Assembly: GCF_014803405.1 (NCBI RefSeq)
Contig: NZ_JACYFG010000057.1
Coordinates: forward strand, 1-49,779
Length of the DNA: 49,779 nucleotides
Source of the DNA: Pelagicoccus enzymogenes
GTDB taxonomy: Bacteria > Verrucomicrobiota > Verrucomicrobiia > Opitutales > Opitutaceae
Reading direction: 5' to 3'
In this document: positions 4,187 to 19,678 of the stretch, piece by piece
How the letters are laid out: every line of letters begins with the position of its first letter
Position numbering within the stretch: position 1 is the first letter of the stretch
Notes under the pieces: model-generated
Database searches by the model: none
Told to the model about the DNA's origin: nothing
The model's input: only the letters and a program-made list of their open reading frames with translations
Translations under genes and position numbers: made by a program

Positions 4187-4357
4187 CGAGCTTTTGCCCC
4201 GCCCGCCCGGCAAGGCAGAGAATCCTACAGCGAAGCTCGCGCCGGCCGGATGGGCATCGGGCAACGCCCCGCACTTCCCGCACCTCCCCTCTACGCTTCC
4301 AAGGTCAAGCAAACCGCGCCCCTCGCCTCTCGCCCCAGAAACCTTCCCGCCCCTGCC

Positions 4358-5230
4358 ATGCCGGACTCCACCAAACAAGCCTTCGACTGGCGAAACGCTG
4401 TCGACCAAACCTACGACGAAGTTTCCCAACAACTTCTCGACTACCTTCCCCAGCTGCTCGGCGCCCTCGCCCTCTTCCTCTGCGGATGGGCGATTGCCTA
4501 CGTCCTGCGGCTGCTTACTCGCAAGCTCGTGCAGGGACTCAATTCCGTCTTCCGCAAAGTAGCGAAGGGCGACGGCGAAGAACGCAAACGGATCAAGGAG
4601 TCCTACTCCCTCATCATCAGTGGCCTCGTCTTTTGGTCCGTGCTCATCTTCTTCGTCGCGGCCAGCGCCAACCTGCTGGGCTGGAGCATGTTTTCCATTT
4701 GGCTGGATAGCATCGTCGGATTTCTCCCCAGTCTCGTCACGGGACTGCTCATCATCCTCGCTGGATACCTCATCAGCAATGCAGCCCGCTCCGCGATTTC
4801 CGGAGCCGCCGCCCGCTCCTCCATCCCTCGCGCCGCCGCCCTTCCGCGCCTCGTACAGACCGTCATCATTTTCGCCACCGTCATCATCGGAGCCGAGCAG
4901 ATGGGCCTCAACGTACACTTCCTCACCAACATCGTAGTCGTCACCAGCGGCATCCTGCTCGCCGGCGCCGCCCTCGCCTTCGCCCTGGGCGGACAAACCC
5001 TTGTCGCCAACACCCTCGGCGCCCGGCACCTCAACCAACATTGCCAAATCGGAGACCAAGTCGTCATCGGCGAACGGAAAGGCGAAATCGTGGAGGTGAC
5101 CCGCACCGCCATCATCCTCGACACTGCGGAGGGCAAGCTGGTAGTGCCCGCAAAATTCTTCGACGAACAGGCGACCCTCGTAACCTCGGAAGGCTTCCAG
5201 GCCAAATCCGCAGCCAGCCAAGATGAGTAA
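4358..5230 (+). CDS. MscS-like mechanosensitive channel, TM-helix type
   Basis: A 290-residue membrane protein. I chose the ATG at 4358 (MPDSTKQAFDW) over the upstream ATG at 4250 because the added 36 residues are low-complexity and unlike a family N-terminus. Hydrophobic segments lie at about residues 25-48, 88-110, 119-140, 162-183 and 188-215. The N-terminal part (LLDYLPQLLGALALFLCGW) matches the conserved TM-helix repeat of MscS-like proteins. The pore-lining part is followed by a short soluble beta segment (CQIGDQVVIGERKGEIVEV) typical of the MscS beta domain. Such channels release osmolytes or conduct ions at the inner membrane. The stop overlaps the next gene by 8 bp, tying it to two MgtE-related genes, so a role in magnesium or osmotic homeostasis is inferred. 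Confidence 0.82.
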   Translation: MPDSTKQAFDWRNAVDQTYDEVSQQLLDYLPQLLGALALFLCGWAIAYVLRLLTRKLVQGLNSVFRKVAKGDGEERKRIKESYSLIISGLVFWSVLIFFVAASANLLGWSMFSIWLDSIVGFLPSLVTGLLIILAGYLISNAARSAISGAAARSSIPRAAALPRLVQTVIIFATVIIGAEQMGLNVHFLTNIVVVTSGILLAGAALAFALGGQTLVANTLGARHLNQHCQIGDQVVIGERKGEIVEVTRTAIILDTAEGKLVVPAKFFDEQATLVTSEGFQAKSAASQDE

Positions 5231-6065
5231 ACGGAAAGCGACCCTCGCCCTTGCCTACCTCAAGGACCATCCCAAGTCGGCGGCCCGCACCCTCGAGCTC
5301 GCCCCACCGTCCGAAATCGCCAGCTTCCTGGCCGAAACCCCGGCCCCCTTCGCGGTCCTCGTCGTCGCCCACATGCTTCCCCACGTCGCCGCACGCGCCT
5401 GCCGGCTCATGCCCGTGGACGCGGCGGTAAGCCTGCTCTCGCTGCTCGAGCCCGTGACCATCGCAGCCATCTTTCGCTACCTCCCTCCCGAACTTCGACA
5501 GAAACTCCAGACGGAACTCCCCAGCCGCAAGCGCCGCGCCTCCGGAGCCCTGCTCGGCTACAGCCAAAACGCGGTCGGAAGCTGGATGATCCCCGACGCC
5601 CCGGTACTGCCAAGCGACGGAAAAGGAGCCCAAGCCCAGTCCATCATCGAAACGATGGAGGGCAGCCAAAAGGCGGACCACCTCTTCGCCATCGACAGGG
5701 ACCGCCACCTTGTCGGGCGTATCCACATTTCCGATGCGCTCGCCCTAAAGCCGGAACAAGACATCCTTCCAGCCCTCAAGCTGGACTGCCGCGCCCTCAA
5801 TGGCAGGACCCGGCTCGAGCAAGCTGCCGAACATCCCGATTGGGACAGCTACGATGTCATGCCCATCGTGGGACCCAACAACCGATACAACGGATCGCTA
5901 CGGCACGTCGACTTGCGACGCGGCCTGCGGCATCTCGCCAAGATGGCCCGTTCGCGAGACCTGGAGTCGGGCATCGGCAACAACCTTTCCGACTACCTAC
6001 ACAGCCTCCTGTCCACGCTTTCCGGAATGGCTCACATGATCGACTCAGACACCCGCAGCCCATGA
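5223..6065 (+). CDS. Soluble MgtE-N/CBS protein without channel domain
   Basis: A 280-residue cytoplasmic protein built like the regulatory half of MgtE. Residues about 15-100 are a helical repeat resembling the MgtE N domain (EIASFLAETP, AVSLLSLLEPVTIAAIF). Residues about 115-240 form a CBS-domain pair (HLFAIDRDRHLVGRIHISDAL and YDVMPIVGPNNRYNGSLRHVDL). There is no transmembrane part, and the gene ends after a short helical tail. In true MgtE the N and CBS domains close the pore when Mg2+ is bound, so this stand-alone copy could be a sensor or a hetero-partner of the adjacent channel (inference). It overlaps the upstream channel gene by 8 bp and full-length mgtE by four bases (ATGA), so all three are almost certainly one operon. 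Confidence 0.8.
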   Translation: MSKRKATLALAYLKDHPKSAARTLELAPPSEIASFLAETPAPFAVLVVAHMLPHVAARACRLMPVDAAVSLLSLLEPVTIAAIFRYLPPELRQKLQTELPSRKRRASGALLGYSQNAVGSWMIPDAPVLPSDGKGAQAQSIIETMEGSQKADHLFAIDRDRHLVGRIHISDALALKPEQDILPALKLDCRALNGRTRLEQAAEHPDWDSYDVMPIVGPNNRYNGSLRHVDLRRGLRHLAKMARSRDLESGIGNNLSDYLHSLLSTLSGMAHMIDSDTRSP

Positions 6066-7393
6066 ACACTGCCCCAGCCACCGAGATCAAAGAGGACCCC
6101 ATCTACAAGCTCAACCGGGACTACCTCCTCAACTTCACCACCGACGCCGCACGCCGCATCGAAGCCATGCGGTCCAGCGAAGCGCTCGACGTCCTCGAGG
6201 AACAGCCGGCGCACGTGCTCGCCCGCGTCTTCGAACGCCTCAACCCCGGAGCCGCGGACAACCTGCTGAAGCAGCTTCCCGAAGCGGTCGCCACCGAACT
6301 GCTCAAGACGATCGACATCCGCAGCGGCTCCGCTCTGCTCAGCCGTTGCCCCCAAGAAAGGCGCGAAGCGCTGCTCGCCCGCATGGACAAAGGGATAGCC
6401 AAGGAGTACGCCTCGCTGCTGGAGTACCCGGAGGATTCCGCGGGCCGCATCATGCAACCGCATGTCGTCGCTTTCAATCAGAGCGTCACCGTCGACGCCG
6501 CCATCAGCCAGATCAAGCGTCGCAAGGTGTCCAGCCTCCACCACTTGCTCTTGCTCGACGACAACTTGCGCCTGGTCGGCTCCGTCGATATCCAACGCAT
6601 CGCCTTGGCCGACGGTCACGAAACGCTTGCATCCCTGTCCAGCCCAGTAAAGGCCGTCGTGCAAAGCCTCGATCCCCGCGAAGACGTAGTCGCGAAAATG
6701 GAGAAGCACCGAGTCGACGCCATCCCGGTCGTCGATATGGATAACCGCATCCTCGGCGTGATCGAAGGCCAAAACCTCATTGACGCCCTGCGCGAAAACC
6801 TCGCCTCGGACATGCAGACCATGGTGGGCGCCAGCAAGGACGAACGAGCCCTCTCCAGCTCCGTCTTCGCCGTCAAGCGCCGCCACCCGTGGCTGCAGAT
6901 CAACCTCCTTACCGCCTTCCTCGCCGCCGCAGTCGTGGGAGCCTTCGAAGGCATCATTACCAAGTACACGGCCCTCGCCATCCTCCTTCCTATCGCCGCC
7001 GGCCAATCGGGCAACGCCGGCGCCCAGGCCCTCGCCGTCACCATGCGCGGCCTCACCTTGCGCGAGATTTCCATGCGACACTGGCTGCGGGTCATGCTCA
7101 AAGAATGCGGAGCCGGCCTGCTCAACGGCTTGGGAATCGCCATCACCTGCTCCGCCGGGATCTACCTCTGGAGCCGCAGCTTCGGGCTCGCGCTCGTGAT
7201 GGCCCTCGCGATGATCGTGTCCATGACCATCGCCGGAGTCTCCGGAGCCGTAGTGCCGATCCTGCTCAAACGCTTCGGAATGGATCCCGCCCAATCCTCC
7301 TCCATTGTCCTCACGACCGTGACCGACATCGCCGGCTTCATGTCCTTTCTCGGTATCGCCACCCTCCTTTCCCCCTTGCTGGAAGCGGGCTGA
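6062..7393 (+). CDS. mgtE: Magnesium transporter MgtE
   Basis: 443 residues, the usual MgtE length, from the ATG that overlaps the preceding stop by four bases. The longer frame opening at 5840 runs through that neighbour and is rejected. Domain order is complete: N domain (about 10-130), CBS pair (about 135-260, with AGRIMQPHVVAFNQSVTV and DAIPVVDMDNRILGVIEG), connecting helix, and five membrane segments (about 285-440). Channel signatures include AGQSGNAGAQALAVTMRGL and the near-C-terminal TTVTDIAGFMSFLGIA, whose Asp lies at the cytoplasmic Mg2+ site of characterised MgtE. It should be a homodimeric inner-membrane Mg2+ channel gated by intracellular Mg2+. The extra soluble paralogue next door is the unusual feature. 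Confidence 0.93.
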   Translation: MNTAPATEIKEDPIYKLNRDYLLNFTTDAARRIEAMRSSEALDVLEEQPAHVLARVFERLNPGAADNLLKQLPEAVATELLKTIDIRSGSALLSRCPQERREALLARMDKGIAKEYASLLEYPEDSAGRIMQPHVVAFNQSVTVDAAISQIKRRKVSSLHHLLLLDDNLRLVGSVDIQRIALADGHETLASLSSPVKAVVQSLDPREDVVAKMEKHRVDAIPVVDMDNRILGVIEGQNLIDALRENLASDMQTMVGASKDERALSSSVFAVKRRHPWLQINLLTAFLAAAVVGAFEGIITKYTALAILLPIAAGQSGNAGAQALAVTMRGLTLREISMRHWLRVMLKECGAGLLNGLGIAITCSAGIYLWSRSFGLALVMALAMIVSMTIAGVSGAVVPILLKRFGMDPAQSSSIVLTTVTDIAGFMSFLGIATLLSPLLEAG

Positions 7394-8807: not shown

Positions 8808-9260
8808 ATGTCACATAGCCACCCAACCCTCATCGGTTGGAAAGAGTCTATCGACCTCCCAGATTGGGGGATTTCAGACATCACTGCCAAAACAGATACC
8901 GGCGCCCGCCGCTCCGCCATCGACGTTGAGAACATCGTCGAACTCCCGGGAAACCGCGTCCAATTCGAGGTCGCCGCGGATCGACGCACCGGACAACTGA
9001 AAAAAACCGTCATCGCCGACATCGAGCATCAAACGCACGTGCGCTCCAGCAATGGACAGCAACATGAGCGCTACTTCGTTGCCACGCGGGTACGGGTCGG
9101 CGAAACTGAAAAAAAGATCGAGCTCAGCCTCAGCAACCGCAAGCACATGCAGTGTCGCATGCTGCTCGGGCGACTCGCCTTGAGCGGCGACTTCCTGGTC
9201 GATTGCTCCAAGTCGTTCGTGACCCGACCCAATCGAAAGCCAAAAGTCCGCAAACGCTAG
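8808..9260 (+). CDS. Retropepsin-like protease of the RimK-associated family
   Basis: 150 residues from the ATG at 8808 (MSHSHPTLIGWKES); the upstream in-frame ATG at 8745 adds an unrelated-looking extension. The protein matches the family once called ATP-dependent zinc protease (PF05618), now regarded as retropepsin-like. It has WGISDITAKTDTGARRSAID near the N-terminus with the catalytic-type D-T-G-A, then a beta-rich body and RKHMQCRMLLGRLAL near the end. In Pseudomonas the homologue RimB acts with RimK to control glutamate tails on ribosomal protein S6. A rimK-like gene starts 35 bp downstream here, the same pairing. The inferred role is trimming of amino-acid tails or cleavage of an amidoligase product. 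Confidence 0.82.
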   Translation: MSHSHPTLIGWKESIDLPDWGISDITAKTDTGARRSAIDVENIVELPGNRVQFEVAADRRTGQLKKTVIADIEHQTHVRSSNGQQHERYFVATRVRVGETEKKIELSLSNRKHMQCRMLLGRLALSGDFLVDCSKSFVTRPNRKPKVRKR

Positions 9261-9295
9261 AGCTAACTTAGAAACACGCTCCAACCCACCTCACC

Positions 9296-10513
9296 ATGGA
9301 CCCATTAAAGATCGCCATCCTTTCCCGAGGCCCTCGCCTCTACAGCACTCGCAGGCTACGCGAGGCCGCCGAAAAACGCGGCCATAAAGTCAAGGTGCTC
9401 GATACCATGAAGTTCGCCCTCTACATCGAGGCCGGACAACCCGACCTCACCTTCGGCGGCAAACCGTTGAGCAGCTACGACGCCATCATTCCGCGTATCG
9501 GAACTTCCCTTACCTTCTTCGGCTCATCCGTCGTGCGGCAGTTCGAGCAGATGGGTACCTACTGTTTGAATACAGCCGACGCCATTCTCGCATCCCGCGA
9601 CAAGCTCGCCTCCATGCAGGAGCTCTCCAGCCATAACGTCGGCATCGCCGAAACCGCCTTCGTGCGCAATCCCACCGACGTGCTCAAGGCCATCCAAGCC
9701 ATGGGCGGGGCTCCTGTCGTCATCAAGCTCCTACAAGGCACCCAAGGCATCGGCGTCATCCTCGCCGAGACCAACAAGGTCGCCGAAGCGATCATCGAAA
9801 CCCTCAGCGCGGTTAAGCAGAACGTGCTCGTGCAAAAATTCGTGGCCGAGTCGAAAGGCCGCGACATTCGCGCCTTCGTCGTGGGCGACCGCGTGGTCGC
9901 CGCCATGCGTCGTACCGCAGCCGGACAAGAGTTTCGCTCCAACGTCCACCGCGGAGGAAATACCCAGTCCGTCACCCTCGATCCCGAATACGAACGCACT
10001 GCCGTCAAGGCCGCCCAGATTCTCAACCTAAGCGTCGCCGGCGTCGACATGCTCGAAGGCGCCGACGGCCCCGTCATCATGGAAGTCAATTCCTCGCCCG
10101 GACTCGAAGGCATCGAAGGCGCCACCGGCGTCGACATCGCCGGGGAGATCATCCAGTTCATGGAGGAACAGATTCGCTTCGGAAACATCGACGTGCGTGA
10201 GCGCCTGGCCTTGACCCGCGGCTACTCCGTCACCGAGTTCGCGGTCGAGCCCAACTCCGAGTTCGTGGGCAAGACCATCCGGGAATCGGGGCTGCGCGAG
10301 CGCGACATCGTGGTGATGCGTCTCGTCCGCGGACAAGACCACATCGCCAACCCCAAGGGAACCCGCATCATCGAGGCGGGCGACCATCTCCTTTGCTACG
10401 GCTTCCGCGCCGCGTTGCAAGGGCTCTTGCCCGCCTTCGCCAAGAGCAAGCGGCGCAAGAAAAAGAGCTCCCTCACCAAGAAGGCCACCAAGCCGGCAGA
10501 CCCGAATTCCTAA
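9296..10513 (+). CDS. rimK: RimK-type ATP-grasp ligase with C-terminal RCK_C domain
   Basis: A 405-residue protein, about 100 residues longer than typical RimK. Residues 5-295 are a complete RimK: N-terminal domain (KIAILSRGPRLYSTRRL), ATP-grasp core (VVIKLLQGTQGIGVILAE, DIRAFVVGDRVVAAMRR) and the metal-binding end (GADGPVIMEVNSSPGLEGIE). RimK adds glutamate to C-terminal glutamate residues, classically of ribosomal protein S6, using ATP. Residues about 314-375 form an RCK_C/TrkA_C domain (NSEFVGKTIRESGLRERDIV, IIEAGDHLLCYG), normally a ligand-binding regulatory module of ion-transport proteins. A lysine-rich tail follows. The RCK_C part suggests allosteric control by a small ligand (inference). 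The stop abuts the ATG of the next gene with no gap. The true substrate in this organism is unknown. Confidence 0.88.
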   Translation: MDPLKIAILSRGPRLYSTRRLREAAEKRGHKVKVLDTMKFALYIEAGQPDLTFGGKPLSSYDAIIPRIGTSLTFFGSSVVRQFEQMGTYCLNTADAILASRDKLASMQELSSHNVGIAETAFVRNPTDVLKAIQAMGGAPVVIKLLQGTQGIGVILAETNKVAEAIIETLSAVKQNVLVQKFVAESKGRDIRAFVVGDRVVAAMRRTAAGQEFRSNVHRGGNTQSVTLDPEYERTAVKAAQILNLSVAGVDMLEGADGPVIMEVNSSPGLEGIEGATGVDIAGEIIQFMEEQIRFGNIDVRERLALTRGYSVTEFAVEPNSEFVGKTIRESGLRERDIVVMRLVRGQDHIANPKGTRIIEAGDHLLCYGFRAALQGLLPAFAKSKRRKKKSSLTKKATKPADPNS

Positions 10514-11587
10514 ATGCCAAAAGCCAGAAACAGCGCACTGAAAATCGGCGGCGTCACCATCCGAGCCGGCGAGACTAAAGACATCGGGCTCAATCTGTCC
10601 GAAACCTATACCGGCGACACCATTCGCATGCCAGTGCGGGTTATCCGCTCGAAAAAGGCGGGACCTCGCGTCTTCGTCACGGCCGCCATCCATGGCGACG
10701 AAATCAACGGCACCGGCATTATTCACGACTTCCTCTTCGGCCAGTCCTGCGAACTGAAGTGCGGCACCTTGATTCTCGTCCCGGTGGTGAACGTGCTCGG
10801 CTTCGAGAACAACCAGCGCTACCTTCCCGACCGGCGCGACCTAAACCGCTCCTTCCCCGGCTCGCAAAACGGCAGCATGGCGGGCCGCATCGCCTACAAG
10901 CTGATGAACGAAATCGCTAAGAAGTGCGACTACGGGATAGACCTGCACTCCGCCGCCTTCCAACGTACCAACTACCCGAACGTGCGGGCCGACTTAAGCA
11001 GCCCAAACATTCGCAAGCTGGCTTCCGCTTTCGGCTGCGCCCTCGTCATCGACGGAAAAGGTCCGCTCGGCTCTTTTCGTCGCGAAAGCGCCCGCGCCGG
11101 CACGCCCACCATCATCCTGGAAGCGGGCGAACCGTGGAAGATCGAGCCCAGCGTATTGCAAATCGGGGTACAAGGAATTCGCAACGTGCTCGTCCACCTG
11201 GGCATGCAGGACGGCCAGCCCTCGCCTCCCCCCTTCCAAGCCACCATCCGCAAAACCCTGTGGCTGCGGGCCACCGTGGGCGGAATCCTAAAGTTCCACA
11301 TCAGCCCGGGCGCCTTCGTACGCGAGGGCGAGGCGATCGCCACGAACTACAGCATTCTCGGCGAGGAGCAAAATATCATTACCAGCCCGACCCACGGCAT
11401 CGCGATCGGCATGGCCACCATGCCAGCAGTCAAGCCGGGCGAGCCCGTCTGCCACATCGCCAAACTCTCGGAAAGCCAAATCAAGCGCTACGAGAGAAGC
11501 CTCAACAAAGACAAGTCCGATCCCTACAAGCAGGCCCAGTCCGATCTCGCCACCAACCTCGACGTGGTCGAAGTGAACGAGTCGTGA
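10514..11587 (+). CDS. AstE/aspartoacylase-like zinc deacylase
   Basis: A 357-residue member of the succinylglutamate desuccinylase/aspartoacylase family (M14-like zinc hydrolases). Metal-site motifs are clear: AAIHGDEINGTG supplies His60 and Glu63, and YGIDLHSAA supplies His145. DRRDLNRSFPG (about 106-116) is the conserved substrate-binding segment, and Glu203 in TIILEAGE is the probable catalytic base. The C-terminal 120 residues form the beta-barrel subdomain (GGILKFHISPGAFVREGEAI). Members remove acyl groups from N-acyl amino acids; those next to rimK are thought to act on peptide-like amidoligase products. It starts on the base after the rimK stop and ends 17 bp before ppk2, so one operon is likely. 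The substrate is not assigned. Confidence 0.87.
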   Translation: MPKARNSALKIGGVTIRAGETKDIGLNLSETYTGDTIRMPVRVIRSKKAGPRVFVTAAIHGDEINGTGIIHDFLFGQSCELKCGTLILVPVVNVLGFENNQRYLPDRRDLNRSFPGSQNGSMAGRIAYKLMNEIAKKCDYGIDLHSAAFQRTNYPNVRADLSSPNIRKLASAFGCALVIDGKGPLGSFRRESARAGTPTIILEAGEPWKIEPSVLQIGVQGIRNVLVHLGMQDGQPSPPPFQATIRKTLWLRATVGGILKFHISPGAFVREGEAIATNYSILGEEQNIITSPTHGIAIGMATMPAVKPGEPVCHIAKLSESQIKRYERSLNKDKSDPYKQAQSDLATNLDVVEVNES

Positions 11588-11604
11588 GCCTTCCCGATCG
11601 TGCC

Positions 11605-12357
11605 ATGAGCACCGAAACGAACGAAGCTTACCTCCTGGAGTTAAGAAACCTCCAACGGGAACTCGTGCTCCTGCAGCAGTCGGTCCAAAGCGAAGGCCGT
11701 CGTTTGCTCGTCATCTTCGAAGGCCGCGACACCGCTGGGAAAGGCGGCGCTATTCGTCGTTTTTCCGAACACCTCAACCCACGTTTCCTGAAAATCATCG
11801 CCCTCGCAAAACCGAGCGAGATCGAAACGAAGCAGTGGTTCTTCCAGCGCTACCTGAGGCACCTTCCCAACGCAGGAGAGATCGTATTTTTCGACCGCAG
11901 CTGGTACAACCGCGCCGTGGTGGAACCCGTCATGAACTTCTGCACTGCCCAGCAGTACGAACGTTTCAAAAGCCAGGTGCTCACCGTCGAGAACATGCTG
12001 ATCGACGACGGCATCCAATTGATAAAGCTCTGGTTCTCCATCAACCGCGAGGCCCAATCCCAACGCATCGAACGCCGCAGCTCCGACATACTCTACCAAT
12101 GGAAACTCAGCACCATCGACGCCCTCGCCCAGGAAAAGTGGAACGACTTCACCCACTACAAGGAAAAGATGTTTGAGAGCACCCATAGCGAAAAGTCGCC
12201 TTGGATCATCATCGACGGAAACGACAAGGCGACCGCCCGCATGGAAGCCATCCGCTACGTCCTCTCCCAATGCGACTACCACCGCAAAGGCGAACTCAAG
12301 GTGTCGCTCACTCCCGACTCTAAAATTGTGACTCGCTACCAGAGTCGCGAGAAGTAA
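11605..12357 (+). CDS. ppk2: Polyphosphate kinase 2
   Basis: 250 residues from the ATG at 11605; the long frame opening at 10924 is an out-of-frame shadow of the preceding gene. It is a PPK2-family P-loop kinase of one-domain size. The Walker A motif EGRDTAGKGGAIRR spans residues 39-52. The Walker B/lid motif FFDRSWYNRAVVEPV has Asp97. The C-terminal half keeps WSIN-type and HYKEKM features. PPK2 enzymes use inorganic polyphosphate to phosphorylate nucleoside mono- or diphosphates, or the reverse; the subclass cannot be fixed by eye. It lies inside the amidoligase cluster, 17 bp after the AstE-like gene and 45 bp before the C39-like peptidase gene, so it may regenerate ATP for the three ligases (inference). 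Confidence 0.9.
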   Translation: MSTETNEAYLLELRNLQRELVLLQQSVQSEGRRLLVIFEGRDTAGKGGAIRRFSEHLNPRFLKIIALAKPSEIETKQWFFQRYLRHLPNAGEIVFFDRSWYNRAVVEPVMNFCTAQQYERFKSQVLTVENMLIDDGIQLIKLWFSINREAQSQRIERRSSDILYQWKLSTIDALAQEKWNDFTHYKEKMFESTHSEKSPWIIIDGNDKATARMEAIRYVLSQCDYHRKGELKVSLTPDSKIVTRYQSREK

Positions 12358-12387
12358 AACTAAACCGCAAATCAAGGCATCCCCTTC

Positions 12388-12394
12388 GAGGAGG
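12388..12394 (+). promoter_or_regulatory. Strong Shine-Dalgarno before the C39-like gene
   Basis: GAGGAGG (12388-12394) lies eight bases before the ATG at 12403. Most other genes here lack a recognisable Shine-Dalgarno sequence, so this site fixes the start and suggests strong initiation for the second half of the cluster. Confidence 0.7.
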
Positions 12395-12402
12395 CCTAAG
12401 CA

Positions 12403-13110
12403 ATGAAACCGAATCCCATGCGCCGAGAACTTAAAATGCAGGCGCAACCTACCGAAACCAGCTGCGGCCCGACTTGCCTGCAAGCCGTGTATCAACATTT
12501 CGAGGACGTGTATCCCCTCGAGAGCATCATCTCCGACATTCCGGAAAACCCAGATGGCGGCACCTACTCCGTCATGCTCGCCAACCACGCCCTCAAACGC
12601 GGGTACCAAGCCACCATCTACAGCTACAACCTACGCGTGTTCGACCCGACTTGGGCGGAGCTGGAAGCCGAAGAAATTGCCCCGAAGCTGGCTAAGCGCC
12701 GCGAACACAGCAGCAGCAAACGAGCCCGGACCAATCTCTCCGCCTATATCGAATTCTTGGAGCAAGGAGGCGAAATTCGCTTCGACGAGCTCGACTCCGC
12801 CTTGCTTGCCATGCTGCTGGCCAAAGGCAACCCCGTCATCGCTGGACTCAACTCGACGCACCTCTACCGCAGTTCTCGCCTTAAGAAGAACGGGAAAGAA
12901 GACGACGTTAACGGTGACGTCGAAGGACACTTCGTTACGCTTTTCGAATACGACCACGCCAACAAACAAATCTTGGTTGCCGACCCATACCAAAAAAACC
13001 CACTCTCAGAGTCGCTGATCTACGCGATCGATCCTCAGCGACTCATCAACTCCGTCATGCTCGGCATCGTCACCTACGACGCAAACCTCCTTCTCATCGA
13101 CAAAAAGTGA
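12403..13110 (+). CDS. C39-like thiol peptidase of an amidoligase cluster
   Basis: A 235-residue papain-fold protein of the C39-like group, without an ABC-transporter part. QPTETSCGPTCLQAVY supplies the catalytic Cys21, the following C25 matches the family pattern, EGHFVTLFEYD supplies His176, and ILVADPYQ supplies Asp194, so a full Cys-His-Asp triad is present. There is no signal peptide, so it should act in the cytoplasm. Stand-alone C39-like proteins of this kind are repeatedly found beside RLAN-RimK and GCS2 ligases in genome comparisons. The next gene starts with GTG inside this stop (GTGA overlap) or at an ATG two bases later. A role in cutting or processing the peptide-like product or its protein carrier is inferred. 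Confidence 0.82.
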   Translation: MKPNPMRRELKMQAQPTETSCGPTCLQAVYQHFEDVYPLESIISDIPENPDGGTYSVMLANHALKRGYQATIYSYNLRVFDPTWAELEAEEIAPKLAKRREHSSSKRARTNLSAYIEFLEQGGEIRFDELDSALLAMLLAKGNPVIAGLNSTHLYRSSRLKKNGKEDDVNGDVEGHFVTLFEYDHANKQILVADPYQKNPLSESLIYAIDPQRLINSVMLGIVTYDANLLLIDKK

Positions 13111-14585
13111 AAATGAACTCCCAAGACTCTAGCTTTCGCATCGTCGTCGACTCGCTCTCAAAAATCCCCAAGCGATTTGAAGAGCTGCCACTCATAACCT
13201 CCAGCGAGTACTTGTCCTCCGAATACGCGGATAAGAAGCGTATCAAGGTCATTAACCTGTGCTCCCACAAGAAGTCGCTTTCCACCAGCTACTACGTTTC
13301 CCTGCTTGCCGACGCCCGCAGCCACCGCTGCCTTCCTGAAGCGAAAACGCTCCACCAAATCGAAAGCAAGGTCCTCATCCGAGACGCCATACGCGAACAC
13401 GACGAGCTGATCCAAAGCTCATTCAAACGCCTCGCCACCCACGAATTCACTCTCAGCGTCTATTTCGGCAAGAACCTGGCGAAGAGCTACGACAAGCTCG
13501 CCAAGCGCCTCTACTCGATCTTTCCCTGCCCGCTGGCCCGCTACGAGTTCCACAAGCGCGAAGGGAAATGGAAGCTGCACGAGATTACGCAACTAGGCCT
13601 GCACCAAGTTCCCGACGAACACCACGAATTCATCGAGACAGAACTCAACAACCTGTTCCACAAGCGATGGAGACGCGACCAATCCAACAAGACCTACCGC
13701 TACGAGATTGCGATCCTCGCCAACGAACAAGAAGCCAACGCCCCTTCCGACAAAGGGGCCCTCGAGGCGTTTTGCAAGGCGGCAAACCAACTGGACATGC
13801 GCGCGGAAATCATCACCCCCCGCGACCTGCCGCGGCTCATGGAGTTCGACGCGCTCTTCATCCGCGAGACCACTCGGCTAGACAACCATACCATGCGCTT
13901 CGCCCTCAAGGCGGACCGCTCCGGCATGGTAGTCATCGACGATCCCGAATCCATTCGCCGCTGCTGCAACAAGGTATTTCTGGCGGAACTCCTTCGTACC
14001 CACAATATACCTACACCTAACTCGACGCTTGTCACCCGGCGTAACGTGGGCGAACTTGCCGAGCAGTTCCACTACCCCATCGTGGTAAAGATTCCCGACG
14101 GATCCTTTTCCATCGGCGTACACAAGGTGCGATCCGATGTGGAATTCCACACCCTCTGCAAAAAGCTGCTGCAAACTTCCAGCATTCTCATCGCCCAAGA
14201 GTTCGTGCCCACCGAATTCGACTGGCGCATCGGCATCATCGACGGCACTCCGCTTTACGCCTGCCGCTACTACATGAGCAAAGGACACTGGCAAATCTAC
14301 AACCACGCCGTCAAAGGCGACGACTGGTGCGGCGACAGCAATGGCGTTCCCATCGCCAACGTTCCTGCCTGCGTACTCGACACTGCCCTCAAGGCCGCCG
14401 CTCTCATCGGCAACGGCTTCTACGGAGTCGATCTCAAGCAGCACGGAGACACCGCTCTGGTAATCGAAGTGAACGACAACCCGAGTATCGACGCCGGCGT
14501 GGAAGACGAACTTATAGGCGAGGAACTGTATCTCGCGGTCATGAACACTTTCCTTAAACGCCTCGAATCCAAACACGCCCGCTAA
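13107..14585 (+). CDS. RimK-like ATP-grasp ligase with RLAN N-terminal domain
   Basis: 492 residues from the GTG at 13107 (four-base overlap with the C39-like gene); an ATG at 13113 would give 490. Residues about 10-190 match the RLAN domain, the N-terminal domain of a distinct RimK-like branch (SYYVSLLADARSHRCLP, YFGKNLAKSYDKLAKRLY). Residues about 200-485 are an ATP-grasp ligase: FDALFIRETTRLDNHTMRFA, YPIVVKIPDGSFSIGV (phosphate loop region), FVPTEFDWRIGIIDG, and the metal-binding VIEVNDNPSIDAGVEDE. It should form an amide bond between a carboxylate and an amine using ATP. This branch has been placed by comparative genomics in gene sets with C39-like peptidases, GCS2 ligases and N-formylglutamate amidohydrolases, exactly its neighbours here. 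No substrate is known to me. Confidence 0.87.
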   Translation: MKMNSQDSSFRIVVDSLSKIPKRFEELPLITSSEYLSSEYADKKRIKVINLCSHKKSLSTSYYVSLLADARSHRCLPEAKTLHQIESKVLIRDAIREHDELIQSSFKRLATHEFTLSVYFGKNLAKSYDKLAKRLYSIFPCPLARYEFHKREGKWKLHEITQLGLHQVPDEHHEFIETELNNLFHKRWRRDQSNKTYRYEIAILANEQEANAPSDKGALEAFCKAANQLDMRAEIITPRDLPRLMEFDALFIRETTRLDNHTMRFALKADRSGMVVIDDPESIRRCCNKVFLAELLRTHNIPTPNSTLVTRRNVGELAEQFHYPIVVKIPDGSFSIGVHKVRSDVEFHTLCKKLLQTSSILIAQEFVPTEFDWRIGIIDGTPLYACRYYMSKGHWQIYNHAVKGDDWCGDSNGVPIANVPACVLDTALKAAALIGNGFYGVDLKQHGDTALVIEVNDNPSIDAGVEDELIGEELYLAVMNTFLKRLESKHAR

Positions 14586-14618
14586 GGCCCGAAGCAAACC
14601 CATCCCAAAACAACATCA

Positions 14619-15851
14619 ATGAAAACGCTCTCACTCTTTGAGGCCTTCGGCATCGAGCTGGAATACATGATCGTCGATTGCGACACGCTACGACCTCGCC
14701 CCATCGCGGAGTCGATACTTCTGGACGAAGACGGCAATACCACTCAGGAGATTTCGCTGGGAACCATCGACGTATCCAACGAACTCGCCACCCATGTGCT
14801 GGAGTTCAAGACTGCCGTTCCCACTTCAGACTTGGAAAAGCTGGAAAGGGACTTCCATGACGCCATCACGGAAATGAACGAGCGACTCGCTCCGTTCAAC
14901 GCGAAGCTGGCGCCGGGAGGCATCCACCCGTTTATGGACCCAAGCGTCGAAGGAAAGACCTGGAGCGAAGGTGACCGCACGATCTACGATGCCTACGACC
15001 GCATCTTCGGCTGCAGCAGCCACGGGTGGTTCAACCTGCAGAGCTGCCACATCAACTTGCCTTTCGCAAACGAAGAGGAATTCGCGCGCCTTCACGCAGC
15101 TATCATTCTCATTCTCCCTTACTTGCCAGCGCTCTCTGCGAGCAGCCCCATCATCGAGGGCGAATATCGTGGTTTCTTGGATACACGCATCGACGTCTAC
15201 AAAAACAATCAAATCAAGGTTCCAGAAATCGCCGGCAACATCATCCCCGAGCCCATTTTCAGCTTCAAGGACTACCAGACCGAAATCTTGCAGAAAACCT
15301 ACAAAGCTATCGCCCCTTACGATCCGGATGGAATTCTGCAGCACGAGTGGCTGAATTCCCGCGGAGCGATCGCTCGCTTCGACCGTAACGCGATAGAAAT
15401 CCGACTTTTGGATACGCAAGAAAACCCGACCCAAGACATCGGGATTTGCAGTTTGATAATCGCACTCCTCGAAAGCCTTTGCGCCCTCGATATCGAGACG
15501 CTGAAAGATTTTGCCACTCGCTACACGCCCAAAGAGCGGAAGGAACAGCTCATGGCTATCGCCCGAGACGGCTATGAAGCGGACTTGCTCCTGAGGGACC
15601 TCGCGGAACTCTTCGGCCTCAAATCCAATGAAACCTCCGTAGGAGAGCTTTGGGCAAAAATCGTGGACGCGCTCAAGAACCATCCACGAGTCGCAAAGCG
15701 TACCGAAGCGCTCGGCTACATTTTGCAAGAAGGCAGCCTTGCGGAACGAATCCTAGCCCGCGTGGGCAAGACCCCGACGCAAGAACAGCTAAAAGATACG
15801 GTCGAACATCTGAGCAATTGTCTCGCTAACACCGAAGCATTTACAAACTAA
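14619..15851 (+). CDS. GCS2/YbdK-like carboxylate-amine ligase
   Basis: A 410-residue member of the glutamate-cysteine ligase 2 family (glutamine-synthetase-like fold). Signature segments: FGIELEYMIVD near the N-terminus (metal-binding Glu residues), THVLEFKT, PGGIHPF, and NLQSCHINLPFANEEEF, where GCS2 proteins carry the QSxHINLPF motif. YbdK-type members make gamma-glutamyl-type amide bonds in vitro, but most have no proven product. It starts 33 bp after the RLAN-RimK gene and ends ten bases before the N-formylglutamate amidohydrolase gene. It is the third ATP-dependent ligase of the cluster. The C-terminal 120 residues are helical and variable, as in other cluster-associated members. Confidence 0.86.
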   Translation: MKTLSLFEAFGIELEYMIVDCDTLRPRPIAESILLDEDGNTTQEISLGTIDVSNELATHVLEFKTAVPTSDLEKLERDFHDAITEMNERLAPFNAKLAPGGIHPFMDPSVEGKTWSEGDRTIYDAYDRIFGCSSHGWFNLQSCHINLPFANEEEFARLHAAIILILPYLPALSASSPIIEGEYRGFLDTRIDVYKNNQIKVPEIAGNIIPEPIFSFKDYQTEILQKTYKAIAPYDPDGILQHEWLNSRGAIARFDRNAIEIRLLDTQENPTQDIGICSLIIALLESLCALDIETLKDFATRYTPKERKEQLMAIARDGYEADLLLRDLAELFGLKSNETSVGELWAKIVDALKNHPRVAKRTEALGYILQEGSLAERILARVGKTPTQEQLKDTVEHLSNCLANTEAFTN

Positions 15852-15860
15852 GGCAAATGG

Positions 15861-16559
15861 ATGAGCGCATCCTACCGTTTCATCGTCACTGCGGAACACG
15901 CTTCCCCAGAAATTCCCGCTAAGCACCAAAGCGTTCTCCAAGAATACGCGTCCGCATGCGAGCTGCACCAGGTCTACGATCCCGGTACTAAAGCGATCGC
16001 CGAAGAACTTGCTCGCAGACTCGACTGCCCGCTCCAGCTCGGAAACTACACGCGACTCCTCATCGACCTCAACCGATCCATCGGAAACTCCAGCCAGTTC
16101 TCACCACCCGTTTTCGGGCTTTGCGAAACAGAAAAAGCGAAACTCATTGCCGAGATCTTTGAGCCCTTCCGAGCCGCTGCGCTTCAGAGCATCGAATCAG
16201 CTCACCACGATGGCTACACAGTGGTTCACCTCTCCATTCACTCCTTTACCAAGACCTTTAAAGGCCAGAGACGTGAGGTCGACCTGGGAATCCTCTACGA
16301 TGACGATCGCCCCGCTGAGAAGGCCTTCGGCAAGAAACTGGCGACCTTCCTCAGAATGGTCCTGCCAGAACTGAACATTCGATCCAACGAACCTTATTTG
16401 GGCAAGGACGACGGACATACAACCGCTCTCCGCAGGCGTTATCCAAATAATAACTACATCGGAATCGAATTCGAATTTAGCCAAGACTTGGACCTCGACC
16501 TCGACGCCGAGTCCTACGCAACCATCCTCGCCAAAGCGCTTAAAGCCGCAATTCGTTAA
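15861..16559 (+). CDS. N-formylglutamate amidohydrolase family protein
   Basis: A 232-residue zinc-dependent hydrolase of the FGase family. Conserved pieces are VTAEHASPEIP (metal His), YTRLLIDLNRS (family DLNRS), VHLSIHSFTK (second His) and VDLGILYDDDR. Classical HutG-type enzymes cleave N-formyl-glutamate in histidine degradation, but no hut gene is present here. The setting beside GCS2 and RLAN-RimK points to hydrolysis of an N-acyl-glutamate-like or peptide-like compound made by the cluster (inference). It is the last gene of the run. Its 3' end overlaps the convergent rhamnosidase gene by 20 bp, which leaves no room for a terminator. Confidence 0.83.
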   Translation: MSASYRFIVTAEHASPEIPAKHQSVLQEYASACELHQVYDPGTKAIAEELARRLDCPLQLGNYTRLLIDLNRSIGNSSQFSPPVFGLCETEKAKLIAEIFEPFRAAALQSIESAHHDGYTVVHLSIHSFTKTFKGQRREVDLGILYDDDRPAEKAFGKKLATFLRMVLPELNIRSNEPYLGKDDGHTTALRRRYPNNNYIGIEFEFSQDLDLDLDAESYATILAKALKAAIR

Positions 16560-18939
16560 CGCCAGCTGCCAAGGGATAGGCCGCTCCCTCCCAGACGAAT
16601 TCTCCTGTCACGCCCGAAGGCAAATCGATCTCCACATCCAAAGCGCCTTCCTCGAGCCGGTAGCTCACCGAGAGCGTTCCCGCCGGATGAGGAATCGATC
16701 CGCTCGCCTCTTGAAGCTCGCCAAGGTGTGGCTCGATGCGCACGCGCTGCCAGCCAGGAGCGGCACTGTCAATTCCTAGAACAATGCGAAAAAACTCGAT
16801 ATTCGGACTGGATCCCCATGCGTGACAGTCCGAGCGACTGCTCTCTACCTCCGATTTCTCCGCCCAAGTCGTGAGCCCAAGTTCCATATTTTCCCGCCAC
16901 TTGTCCAACCAAGTGAGGTAATCGTTTCCGAAACCTGCCTTCGCCAAAGCCAAGTGAAGGTAGTATTTAAAGTAGATAGTCGCATGAGCCATCCCCTCGC
17001 CTTTCTGCAAGACCGGAGCCAGAGCCCGTGACTCTTGGCCGTCAAGCACCTCCGTGAGAATCGCAAGGGCATTGGCATGCTGAGAAAGCTGCGAATGATC
17101 AGCTGTATCGAAAACGATGTTACGCTCGGGGTCGTAGTAGTGACGGCGTATCGAATCCTGCAGTAGCTTCGCAGCGTCATCGTAGCGCTGAGCGAAGACC
17201 GGCAATCCCAAGGTTTCCTCCAATTCAGTAGCTAGTTGCAAGGCCCATAAGAGCGTCAGGTCCAAAATAGCTGACTCTCCATCGCCGCCCAAAGGCGGCT
17301 CCCCGGAATCCCAACCGTTGCCGTCATTCACCCAATCCGTAAATTTCCAATACGGAACCTTCGCCAAGCGACCATCCTCGCCTTGAAAGTTCTCGAAGAA
17401 AGCCAGAACTGAGCGAACGCCATCAAGTTTTTCGCGCACGAACGGCTCGTCGGCTCCATACATCCAGTAGTCGTGCAACATACCGATATACCACAGCGAA
17501 AACGTCGAGATGATTTGCGGAGTGTGACTGGGGTGGCGACTCATGGTTACGCCTTCCGCAATACGCGACTGGTCCATCAAATCGAGGGCGTTCTTCAACA
17601 ACCGATCGTCGCCGGAATTATAGAGCGACACCAAAGCCTGGATACGCGTATCCCCAATATACTGTAGCTGCTCATAGTAGGGACAATCCATATACGTCTC
17701 CACCGCACACAAGCGGGCCGTCCGCCAGCCAATTTCCAGCATCTCGGCGAGCGAAGCATCTTCTGTCACGAAGCTGGACTTTAACTCGAAGGGATAGCCC
17801 ACAAAAACGCTATGGAAATCATCTATCACCAATGCTTCGGCTCCTGTTTCAACCTCAATGCTGACATAGCGAAACGTGCGCCAGCTCAGGGGCTCGAAGC
17901 GTTGCCCCACCTCGCCGCTAGAAAGCAAGCGATCCCTCCGCCCCGCGATCACCTTGTCCTCTACCTCGTTCCGATTCCCTTTCAGCGGTGAATCCCATTG
18001 CGGAATCTCCTCAAAAAGCGATTCCGCGTAAACGAGCTCTATCTTGGCATGGGATCCTTTGCTGAATTCAAGAACTGGATACGCATTGGTAAGCGTCGCG
18101 TTGTCTACCAGGATAGTGGCTCTGCTATGCGGAGCCACGCTTACGCTTCCTGCTCCCTGGATCCATTCACCCTCTACCGTAGCTCCCTCGGATTTTCGTA
18201 CCGAATGAAAGCGTTGCGGTCGCAGCTCCAGCTGGGGAATCTGCCTCGGGACCAAATTCCACTCAGAACCGAGACGCACCCCCTTGGGCTTTCCGCCCGT
18301 TGGCCAGCCGACTTTCAACTCGACGGCCGAACCCCACTGCGAGTCGTCGAAACTCGGGCTTTTCCAACCGCTAGGGTATAGCCTGAAGTCCAACTCCTCG
18401 CCCGGTCCTGCCACATAATACCCGCTGTGCCCAATGCCCCAAACCGGGCGATGCGCCTGCGAGCGTATCGCTTTCCAGCTGCTATTGGTGTTGATGACAC
18501 TTTCCGCTTCGCCATCCCCTTGCAGGATGAATCCCGTGCGAAACGAAATTTGAAATTCGGGGCGCCTTTCACCCTCGTTCCAAACAAGGGATGCTATCTG
18601 GTTCGCGCCCTTTTTCAAATGAGGAGCCAAGTCCACGGTTTCAAAGTTCCAATGAAAAAAGTCTCCTGCAGCCGGCCCTTCAGAAACCAGAGATCCATTC
18701 ACATACAACTTATAGCGGCAATCCCCTGAGACATGAACGATAAAGCTTTCCGGAACGCTCGAAAGTTCGAACCCTTTCCTGTAGTGATAGACTCCATACT
18801 CGTGATTCGAACGATCCTCCGCGCCAATCCATTTCGCATTCCACAAGCCATCGAGAATGCCAGCGCTCAACGACCTCGTTTCACCGCCGCAAATTAGAAC
18901 GGTTGCTGCCAATAGGACGATAGCTAGCCTATTCCTCAT
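16540..18939 (-). CDS. Secreted GH78 alpha-L-rhamnosidase-like protein
   Basis: 799 residues with a Sec signal peptide (about 1-26). N-terminal beta domains (about 30-370) include the jelly-roll binding segments usual in the family (YKLYVNGSLVSEGP). An (alpha/alpha)6 catalytic domain covers about 380-720. The GH78 catalytic pattern is intact: MDCPYYEQLQYIGD gives Asp418, Glu423 and Asp430, spaced exactly as D567, E572 and D579 in the characterised Bacillus enzyme. Glu694 in TTWAEK is a good candidate for the fourth acidic residue, followed by SRSDCHAWGSSP. A C-terminal beta-sandwich closes the protein. It should release rhamnose from polysaccharides outside the cytoplasm. Its start overlaps the upstream TMEM175-like gene by 11 bp. 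Unsaturated-sugar or related hydrolases of the same fold are less likely. Confidence 0.87.
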   Translation of the reverse strand: MRNRLAIVLLAATVLICGGETRSLSAGILDGLWNAKWIGAEDRSNHEYGVYHYRKGFELSSVPESFIVHVSGDCRYKLYVNGSLVSEGPAAGDFFHWNFETVDLAPHLKKGANQIASLVWNEGERRPEFQISFRTGFILQGDGEAESVINTNSSWKAIRSQAHRPVWGIGHSGYYVAGPGEELDFRLYPSGWKSPSFDDSQWGSAVELKVGWPTGGKPKGVRLGSEWNLVPRQIPQLELRPQRFHSVRKSEGATVEGEWIQGAGSVSVAPHSRATILVDNATLTNAYPVLEFSKGSHAKIELVYAESLFEEIPQWDSPLKGNRNEVEDKVIAGRRDRLLSSGEVGQRFEPLSWRTFRYVSIEVETGAEALVIDDFHSVFVGYPFELKSSFVTEDASLAEMLEIGWRTARLCAVETYMDCPYYEQLQYIGDTRIQALVSLYNSGDDRLLKNALDLMDQSRIAEGVTMSRHPSHTPQIISTFSLWYIGMLHDYWMYGADEPFVREKLDGVRSVLAFFENFQGEDGRLAKVPYWKFTDWVNDGNGWDSGEPPLGGDGESAILDLTLLWALQLATELEETLGLPVFAQRYDDAAKLLQDSIRRHYYDPERNIVFDTADHSQLSQHANALAILTEVLDGQESRALAPVLQKGEGMAHATIYFKYYLHLALAKAGFGNDYLTWLDKWRENMELGLTTWAEKSEVESSRSDCHAWGSSPNIEFFRIVLGIDSAAPGWQRVRIEPHLGELQEASGSIPHPAGTLSVSYRLEEGALDVEIDLPSGVTGEFVWEGAAYPLAAGVNELRL

Positions 18940-19678
18940 GCGCCTTTTCCAGTTCGTTTTTCAAGTTCCTTAGCCTGCGGCTGAAATACTTGCCGTTCAG
19001 GATCATAGCAAAAGGAATTAGAAAGTAGATGAACCCTGCCATTACCCCAAGCTTCGCAGGAAGCAGCAGTGCCCACAGAGCGGATACCAATCCGATCACG
19101 CTTTGCGAAAGCCAGGCGCCAATGCCGCTCTTTGTAATGAGCACCTCTTCTTCATCGAGCAACAACTGTTCTGAACACCTCAACGCCCGGTAAAACAGGG
19201 ACGCCAACACACCCGCCAAAACGAAAAAGCCAATTCCATAGATTCCCAACAGGGCCTGCACCTCCCAGGCGCTTTCGGCTATAAAATCGGTTGGCAGCCA
19301 ACCTCCGCTCGCCCAGGAGAGAAAGGTAGAGAACATCAGACGAAGCGGAAAAACGTAAACCAGTATGGTAAAAATCATGCCCAAAGTGAGTCCCGTCGTC
19401 CACCCATCTTCTAAGCCATAACGTCGACTCCAGCCGCGGTGGGCCAACCAAAACAGGCCTATCTGAGCGAAACTCAAGGCAAAGGCCGGCACTCGCTTCA
19501 AGGCTTCTATCAGCTCGGGCAAGTCCCCCGGAATGCTGCCCACCGACACCACAAGTGTCGTCAAGGCGAAAGCGAAAGCGGCGTCGGAAAACACCTCGAG
19601 TCGTGTCATCGCTTCGCCACGCATCCGAAATCCGTTTCGACGGGGCAAAGGGGAGAGGGTTTCTGGGGTCCAAGGCAT
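18929..19678 (-). CDS. TMEM175-type potassium channel protein (DUF1211)
   Basis: Up to 249 residues; the start is uncertain. ATGs at 19678, 19624 and 19609 are all possible, and the first transmembrane helix begins right after the last one. The helix opens with RLEVFSDAAFAFALTTLVVS, the RxxxFSD signature of bacterial TMEM175 channels, which conduct K+ as tetramers of six-helix subunits. Six hydrophobic segments follow in a typical layout (about 28-46, 61-80, 92-115, 137-165, 185-205, 208-228). The C-terminus is charged. The gene end overlaps the start of the GH78 gene by 11 bp, so they are probably co-transcribed despite unrelated functions. Confidence 0.8.
   Translation of the reverse strand: MPWTPETLSPLPRRNGFRMRGEAMTRLEVFSDAAFAFALTTLVVSVGSIPGDLPELIEALKRVPAFALSFAQIGLFWLAHRGWSRRYGLEDGWTTGLTLGMIFTILVYVFPLRLMFSTFLSWASGGWLPTDFIAESAWEVQALLGIYGIGFFVLAGVLASLFYRALRCSEQLLLDEEEVLITKSGIGAWLSQSVIGLVSALWALLLPAKLGVMAGFIYFLIPFAMILNGKYFSRRLRNLKNELEKAHEE

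Follow-up and report, generated by a model that had tools for sequence, protein, structure and literature searches.

Two amide-bond gene modules joined at one locus in the genus Pelagicoccus

Results

Layout of the locus

We analyzed a stretch of 49,779 nucleotides from Pelagicoccus enzymogenes (NZ_JACYFG010000057.1, below called the window), which is an entire contig of a 6.2 Mb genome, and concentrated on a cluster of eight genes encoding three amide ligases, four hydrolases and a polyphosphate kinase of the PPK2 family. ORF calling together with Pfam places the eight + strand open reading frames (ORFs) at 8808–16559 (Table 1), separated by 35, 0, 8, 45, −4, 33 and 9 bp in gene order, with the start codons of the first and the fourth picked within longer ORFs. 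An earlier note on this DNA, made from the sequence alone, had named the same eight families and described operon-like packing and intact catalytic motifs, and in these respects it was right: the best Pfam family of each protein lies above its curated cut-off, and likely catalytic residues of RimB, AstE, C39, FGase and RLAN-RimK stand in invariant columns, their assignment as catalytic following the known features of these families. The note had also proposed a single make-and-unmake system. Two sets are indeed joined here, but they are not a conserved eight-part system outside Pelagicoccus: the eight genes are a genus-level join of two independently viable systems and not a general eight-gene system. 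Module 1 comprises RimB, RimK and AstE, module 2 comprises C39, RLAN-RimK, GCS2 and FGase, and PPK2 lies at the junction.

Table 1: Features of the locus in the window with their Pfam assignments.
Feature	Position	Strand	Evidence and remarks
MscS-type mechanosensitive channel-like protein	4250..5230	+	PF05552, 56 bits; upstream neighbour of module 1
MgtE-type gene, N domain only	5223..6065	+	PF03448/PF01769/PF00571 run on the MgtE pair
MgtE-type full Mg2+ transporter with CBS	6062..7393	+	PF03448, PF01769, PF00571 across the pair
Module 1 RimB-like retropepsin protease, DTGA motif	8808..9260	+	Zn_protease PF05618, 72.2 bits (cut-off 27)
Module 1 RimK alpha-L-glutamate ligase with C-terminal RCK_C	9296..10513	+	RimK PF08443 (189 bits), Rimk_N, TrkA_C PF02080
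Module 1 AstE/AspA-type zinc deacylase	10514..11587	+	AstE_AspA_cat PF24827, 116 bits
Class I polyphosphate kinase 2, extra gene	11596..12357	+	PPK2 PF03976, 277 bits
Module 2 C39/papain-like cysteine peptidase	12403..13110	+	Peptidase_C39_2 PF13529 (38 bits), also PF03412
Module 2 RLAN-RimK ATP-grasp amide ligase	13107..14585	+	RLAN PF14401 (136 bits) and RimK (33.5)
Module 2 GCS2/YbdK-type carboxylate-amine ligase	14619..15851	+	GCS2 PF04107, 99 bits
Module 2 N-formylglutamate-amidohydrolase-type (M14-like) zinc hydrolase	15861..16559	+	FGase PF05013, 79 bits

Joining of the modules

Eight genomes of the genus were compared, of which four have the modules contiguous, one has two genes between them, one has them apart, one has module 1 without C39 and one has neither. 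All eight genes follow in order in the window, in G675 (Pelagicoccus sp. SDUM812005) and in G696 (Pelagicoccus sp. SDUM812002); G687 has seven genes without PPK2 and a spacing of about 49 bp from AstE to C39, and contiguity in the genus extends to a genome whose C39 is 63% identical. In G677 (Verrucomicrobiae bacterium DG1235) the modules are separated by two genes, one for a glutamate dehydrogenase and one, divergent, for an MscS channel. The modules of G620 lie on different contigs, and about 70 bp after its AstE follows the gene that is found downstream of the cluster in the relatives. Module 1 is present in G663 without C39 (of module 2, C39 alone was searched for), and G685 has no AstE, RimK or C39. 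The modules share one locus in five of the six genus genomes that possess both, with varying upstream neighbours and partly syntenic downstream flanks.

Outside the genus we used a draw of 387 genomes of the phylum, in which AstE relatives were found in 33 and RLAN in 46 genomes. None of the 32 AstE loci besides the window held C39, RLAN, GCS2 or FGase, and none of the 46 RLAN loci besides the window held RimB, RimK-TrkA_C or AstE, with a single weak PPK2 on the opposite strand, so that a neighbourhood with all eight families, for which the earlier note had suggested searching, was seen in none of these 46 loci. An order-wide search found C39 in 24 of 372 genomes, and in eighteen further loci from it both modules occurred in three of four genus members and in none of 14 others. 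From named genomes we examined 80 C39 loci, the best 80 of at least 558 relatives; 77 of them lie outside Pelagicoccus and none of these is joined, the triad of module 1 appearing only in three Pelagicoccus/DG1235 records. Many loci stop at contig ends, so a missing neighbour is a lower bound. According to the earlier note the clustering would be accidental if the two halves always lay far apart in related genomes; they do so in the loci examined outside the genus (0/32 AstE, 0/46 RLAN and 0/14 plus 0/77 C39 loci joined), but not within Pelagicoccus. The clustering is beyond chance, since both modules recur in many genomes and most members of the genus with both modules retain the junction.

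Four of the 77 non-genus C39 loci come near to such an arrangement, none with the full triad. A Pseudobacteriovorax metagenome-assembled genome (L291, 6766–9372) has RimK 1.7 kb upstream of module 2 with two divergent ORFs between them, one of which is MscS-like (75 bits), a layout loosely like that of DG1235. AstE is divergent to C39 in L276 and lies about 3.5 kb downstream of FGase in L286, and L323 has a weak RimK-like match of 43 bits. In G271, from the same family as the window, about 100 kb separate the two modules.

The trees place G620 differently: it branches after G687 in the module-1 tree, is nearest to the window line in the module-2 tree and is paired with G687 in the RLAN tree. 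As G620 falls among the joined genomes in all three despite this discordance, the simplest account would be a joining within the genus, followed by the separation in G620 and an insertion of PPK2 in the line of the window, G675 and G696.

PPK2 passes the class I model TIGR03707 (321.5 bits, cut-off 301.8), and the cluster copies of G675 and G696 are 81–82% identical to that of the window, compared with 65–67% for the best copies elsewhere in the genus genomes and 67% for the nearest other PPK2 in the window's own genome. We had considered it as a core part, as the earlier note had done, and gave this up: the junction copy is present in three of the eight genus genomes (window, G675 and G696), all eight have PPK2 matches elsewhere too, and the gene belongs to neither module elsewhere in the loci examined, where the only matches are two genes of 78 to 88 bits, both on the other strand and some 6 to 8 kb away from the anchor gene. 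It is an extra copy here.

Scans for transcription signals found terminator-like sites at chance level (12 in the cluster against 12.5 expected, counting both strands; the only + strand site falls within PPK2) and likewise promoter-like sites (1, 2.1 expected); they speak neither for nor against a single transcript. A role in anti-phage defence was also considered and dropped, as none of the eight proteins matched PADLOC at E 0.001. Beyond the cluster a convergent alpha-L-rhamnosidase-like gene (16540–18939, − strand) overlaps the end of FGase by 20 bp and is followed by a gene for a TMEM175-type potassium channel (18929–19678, − strand).

Module 1: RimB, RimK and AstE

The RimB-like protein matches the NCBIfam RimB model NF052261 with 77.7 bits, under the equivalog cut-off of 200, and its residues D30, T31, G32 and A33 are invariant in an alignment of 20 homologues. 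RimK narrowly passes NF007764 (S6–L-glutamate ligase; 336.4 bits, cut-off 331), and its profile matches RimK of Pseudomonas aeruginosa (7qyr) with 508 bits. In AstE the residues H60, E63, N111-R112, H145 and E203 are invariant among 23 homologues.

RimK accompanies AstE in 26 of the 32 AstE loci other than that of the window, and 25 of these 26 have RimB too. In 23 of them the three genes are direct neighbours on one strand, arranged in one of three ways; six AstE loci (L130, L131, L136–L139) are without this RimK. On the genome level RimK of this kind is present in 28 of 33 AstE genomes (27 beside AstE, one elsewhere) and was found, at E 1e-30, in none of 23 AstE-free genomes examined. The 33 module-1 genomes used below for RimK and S6 counts were chosen for RimK beside AstE, and of six AstE genomes outside that set one has RimK of this kind. 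The triad is also carried on plasmids of Salinivibrio, Phaeobacter, Vibrio and Acaryochloris, being found in five of six annotated places opened. In Pseudomonas fluorescens RimK makes poly-alpha-L-glutamate and RimB stimulates RimK and cuts polyglutamate (PMC11957791).

Some further genes were seen around module 1. A gene of the M42 glutamyl-aminopeptidase type precedes it in L108, L109 and L110 (Pfam on the L109 copy), and in three genus genomes a glutamate dehydrogenase gene, all one cluster with Pfam run on the L164 copy, lies beside it or a few genes away (L166 7344–8606, L164 14745–16004, L198 4067–5326); the relative in the window's genome is 35% identical and located elsewhere. An in-frame stop interrupts the AstE of G320 (L130); upstream of it lie three RimK-like genes with weak matches, and the genome has no strong RimK.

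The RCK_C domain and ion-transport genes

RimK of the window carries a TrkA_C/RCK_C domain (PF02080, 50.1 bits, cut-off 27) at residues 312–369 (window 10229–10402), and over this tail the RimK profile matches the solved structures of KhtT and KtrC, which we take to be ligand-gated K+ regulators, KhtT presumably being gated by c-di-AMP. Judged by alignment extent the domain is present on RimK in 22 of the 33 module-1 genomes, one partial copy included, and a c-di-AMP synthase (DAC) domain is encoded in the window's genome.

Genes for ion transport accompany module 1 in several other bacteria. The Salinivibrio locus reads MscS, Mg transporter (other strand), RimB, RimK, AstE; that of Vibrio nigripulchritudo RimK, AstE, RimB, MscS; and that of Vibrio europaeus diguanylate cyclase, RimK, AstE, RimB, MgtE, CorA, MscS. 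A CorA gene follows RimB in G172 (L119), and the loci of Photobacterium (L346, unannotated) and Acaryochloris showed no match of the MscS or Mg-transporter type nearby. Within the fetched flanks, with the plasmid loci L342 and L344 kept outside the test, MscS, MgtE, CorA or CNNM genes lie near 10 of 34 AstE loci and 12 of 123 module-2 loci (p 0.009), or near 9 of the 28 AstE loci with RimK (p 0.005), an association that is suggestive only, for reasons given in the Discussion.

C-termini of ribosomal protein S6

The earlier note also mentioned ribosomal protein S6, on which RimK and RimB are known to act. S6 of the window's genome ends in LVSHKMIQKA, and a C-terminal Glu or Asp was found in none of 33 module-1 genomes and none of 22 module-1-free genomes (55 C-termini; G155 had no S6 match and is outside the count). 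A RimK-free member of Pelagicoccus shares the last 13 residues with the window, and S6 of E. coli as control ends in AGDSEE with a longer acidic tail. With such endings, and with the tail unchanged in a genus member that lacks RimK, modification of S6 is unlikely here and is disfavoured as the main role of module 1.

Module 2: C39, RLAN-RimK, GCS2 and FGase

Q15, C21, H176 and D194 of C39 are invariant among 21 homologues, and its AlphaFold model (pLDDT 90) has PeiR, the C39 domains of PCAT1/ComA and the phytochelatin synthase Alr0975 as top Foldseek matches, with modest TM-scores of about 0.4–0.5 by query. In the ligase the RLAN domain (136 bits, cut-off 25) is fused to an ATP-grasp/RimK domain, which in the model (pLDDT 85, pTM 0.60) matches Ddl, ArgX/LysX and RimK; E454 and N456 are among the residues invariant in 32 sequences. 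GCS2 satisfies the GCS2 Pfam model and stays below the YbdK model TIGR02050 (57.1 bits, cut-off 176.4). FGase matched no NCBIfam model; its residues E12-H13, N71-R72, H123 and E205 are invariant in 16 sequences, and it keeps metal ligands and an NR pair of the carboxypeptidase kind.

Of the 46 RLAN loci besides the window 13 have C39, and of those 13 GCS2 is present in 12 and FGase in five; no protein was matched in L077, whose RLAN contains an internal stop, so that 45 of the 46 loci were matched. Around the 80 C39 loci from named genomes we found RLAN in 78, GCS2 in 70 and FGase in 48. Module 2 in this order recurs in records whose titles name more than ten phyla, a tally made by sorting record titles by eye: Verrucomicrobia, Spirochaetes, Planctomycetes, Hydrogenedentota, desulfo-/deltaproteobacteria, Bacteroidetes/Balneolaceae, Acidobacteria, Omnitrophota, Nitrospinota, Nitrospirae, myxobacteria, Fibrobacter, Auribacterota and Tectomicrobia. 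On the RLAN tree, from which four of 65 proteins were left out for length, the label of the C39/GCS2 type needs six changes, at least three of them forced by starred branches. This speaks against a single origin of the RLAN of this type, which we had considered, and indicates repeated gain or loss of module 2.

We also considered that the module-2 product replaces glutathione, and this is not indicated: the GSH-S_N domain is missing from all 47 genomes searched, that of the window included, with and without module 2 alike. Genes for an HflX GTPase and a DUF4149 protein follow GCS2 in L170, L172 and L176, which belong to one family of the order (Pfam on L170). RLAN of another class (L034, L048, L074) lies beside a GNAT gene or a fusion of GNAT and the C39-like DUF3335, an arrangement reportedly given in the Pfam description.

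Discussion

With a probability that we put a little short of even, we favor two self-contained amide-bond systems that were joined in one genus, module 1 acting on polyglutamate and module 2 being glutathione-like. The families, the conserved motifs, the conservation of each module, the joining in the genus and the S6 tails are directly supported. RimK would polymerize alpha-linked glutamate, either onto an acceptor or freely, RimB would cut the polyglutamate internally and stimulate RimK, and the M14-type AstE might take off end residues or a cap. From its co-occurrence with RimK in 28 of 33 genomes and the absence of RimK from AstE-free genomes, AstE is likely an eraser or de-capper, analogous to the deglutamylase in the pair of tubulin polyglutamylase and deglutamylase. 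The K+ state or c-di-AMP could set the rate of RimK via RCK_C, and module 1 would perhaps respond to the ion or osmotic state. For module 2, GCS2 would form a first amide of the gamma-glutamyl type, the RLAN ATP-grasp enzyme would attach a second residue, the papain-like C39 enzyme might cut or transpeptidate and the FGase-type zinc enzyme might release acyl-glutamate. Our best inference for the product is a short gamma-glutamyl or N-acyl-glutamyl peptide, which two ligases make and two hydrolases undo. The spare copy of PPK2 could recycle nucleotide triphosphate for the ATP-hungry ligases, and the joining may lead to joint expression under one stress signal, with co-transcription and regulation as predicted features.

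Several observations weigh against this picture. Five of the 33 AstE genomes are without RimK of this kind, mostly with distant AstE relatives (four with E 7e-39 to 1e-21, plus G320), so the co-occurrence is not complete and the link of AstE is slightly weakened; in the sixth of the plasmid places opened, on a Haloferax plasmid, AstE stands without RimK or RimB next to it. RCK_C is absent from 11 of the 33 RimKs by alignment extent. The company of ion genes is suggestive only because several queries were taken from module-1 loci and at least three control places are duplicated, and a rough genus grouping lowers its enrichment to p 0.03–0.05 (7/24, 6/19 and 12/109 groups, made by hand, with the control side only partly reduced to genera). 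For module 2, GCS2 is distant from any solved GCS (weak YbdK match, E 6e-4), and because GSH-S_N is missing irrespective of module 2, a replacement of glutathione is not indicated. Finally the modules are apart in G620 and have a divergent gene between them in G677, from which it follows that joint expression is not required.

Among the alternatives, a neutral accident of rearrangement without functional meaning is unlikely, though the most probable of them. The separated modules of G620, where the downstream neighbour follows AstE after about 70 bp with no trace of module 2, and the two genes between the modules of G677 fit it, and with partly syntenic downstream flanks some persistence of the junction would be expected anyway. 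It has to explain, however, why five of six genomes keep one locus despite changing upstream neighbours, why G687 retains a short spacing of about 49 bp, and why even PPK2 entered the junction on the same strand and left the string unbroken. More doubtful is one integrated eight-gene pathway, in which the ligase sets would act in series on one metabolite or tail and the four hydrolases would undo their work. Such a pathway would agree with the gaps of at most 45 bp, with contiguity in four of the eight members of the genus, even at a C39 identity of 63%, and with the co-occurrence of AstE and RLAN, as RLAN is found in 16 of 33 AstE genomes compared with 30 of 354 others (12/24 and 20/174 by genus) and AstE in 4 of 14 genomes with C39-type RLAN compared with 29 of 373 others (p 0.02), all figures ignoring shared ancestry. 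But 17 of the 33 AstE genomes have no RLAN and 10 of the 14 C39-type RLAN genomes no AstE, the modules are never neighbours in any locus examined outside the genus, and in 12 of the 16 genomes where both occur RLAN is of the other class, with neither C39 nor GCS2 next to it. Shared ecology or a common metabolite pool is, in our reading, a better account of the co-occurrence than one pathway.

We consider it equally doubtful that RimK-RCK_C, RimB and AstE form an ion-gated switch for a glutamate polymer while module 2 makes a new gamma-glutamyl peptide from the shared glutamate pool. Here c-di-AMP or K+ acting on RCK_C would cause free glutamate to be polymerized or released, beside MscS and MgtE, so that the number of osmolytes would shift while the charge balancing K+ would stay; the module-2 peptide would be non-ribosomal and present in many phyla, and both modules would lie on one operon in Pelagicoccus. 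A further possibility, slightly more remote, is that RimK of module 1 puts glutamate tails on a small cofactor, like MyfB on methylofuran or MptN on tetrahydromethanopterin. ATP-grasp ligases of the superfamily build polyglutamate side chains of coenzymes (PMC8141765). RimK does match the MptN model with 175 bits, but this is below the cut-off of 350, no gene of a cofactor pathway was recognized among the Pfam-named neighbours (most neighbour clusters were not named), and the partner RimB acts on protein-bound or free-chain polyglutamate in the studied case. Least probable in our view is a polyglutamylation switch for S6 (RpsF) of the Pseudomonas/E. coli type with module 2 as an unrelated neighbour: passing NF007764 (336 bits compared with 331) argues for it, but the S6 C-termini described above, in particular the tail shared with a RimK-free Pelagicoccus and the contrast with the EE end of E. 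coli, argue against it, and according to PMC11957791 RimK may have other functions where S6 has no terminal Glu.

Overall the interpretation of the earlier note is partly supported, the locus being a joining of two modules of known type within one genus. The main weight lies on the widespread uncharacterized module 2 and on RimK bearing RCK_C. Module 2 occurs under titles of more than ten phyla and its product is undescribed among the literature matches listed; if the glutathione-like pathway is true, a common bacterial peptide awaits discovery. The combination of RimK-RCK_C and AstE would offer a concrete reason for the persistence of RimK where S6 has no glutamate tail, together with a specific candidate effector.

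Comparison with known systems

Among the literature matches listed, with subscription literature mostly outside them, the four-gene operon of module 2, its product and the fusion of RimK with RCK_C are undescribed, and known systems resemble parts of the locus. The rlo operon of P. aeruginosa, which encodes the protease RloA, RloB and the ATP-grasp protein RloC and confers osmotic tolerance, shares with our locus a retropepsin-like protease beside an ATP-grasp ligase and the osmotic link (PMC12239564). In contrast, RloB is a membrane transglutaminase-like protein according to the same source, and the eight cluster genes match none in Pfam or NCBIfam; RloA moreover carries a signal peptide there, a difference known from the RloA side alone.

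With rimBK/rimABK of Pseudomonas, module 1 has in common the 508-bit profile match of RimK and an adjacent RimB-like DTG protease. It differs in the RCK_C domain on RimK and the neighbouring AstE, as well as in the missing acidic tail of S6 and in a RimB under the equivalog cut-off; the EAL-domain partner RimA is not among the eight cluster genes, the rest of the genome not having been searched for it.

For module 2, the survey of Iyer et al. from 2009 and the Pfam text reportedly describe RLAN-RimK systems with a GNAT-papain protein. RLAN-RimK and a C39/DUF3335-like peptidase are found here as well, but C39 has no GNAT match in Pfam, and GCS2 and FGase follow in fixed order. Synthesis of glutathione by GshA and GshB uses a ligase of the GCS family and then an ATP-grasp ligase. 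Compared with glutathione and phytochelatin metabolism, module 2 is set apart by the lack of a GSH-S_N domain in the window's genome and by the FGase-type hydrolase, for which we know of no counterpart there, while it shares with them the ligases of the GCS and ATP-grasp families and a papain-like enzyme that is structurally near phytochelatin synthase.

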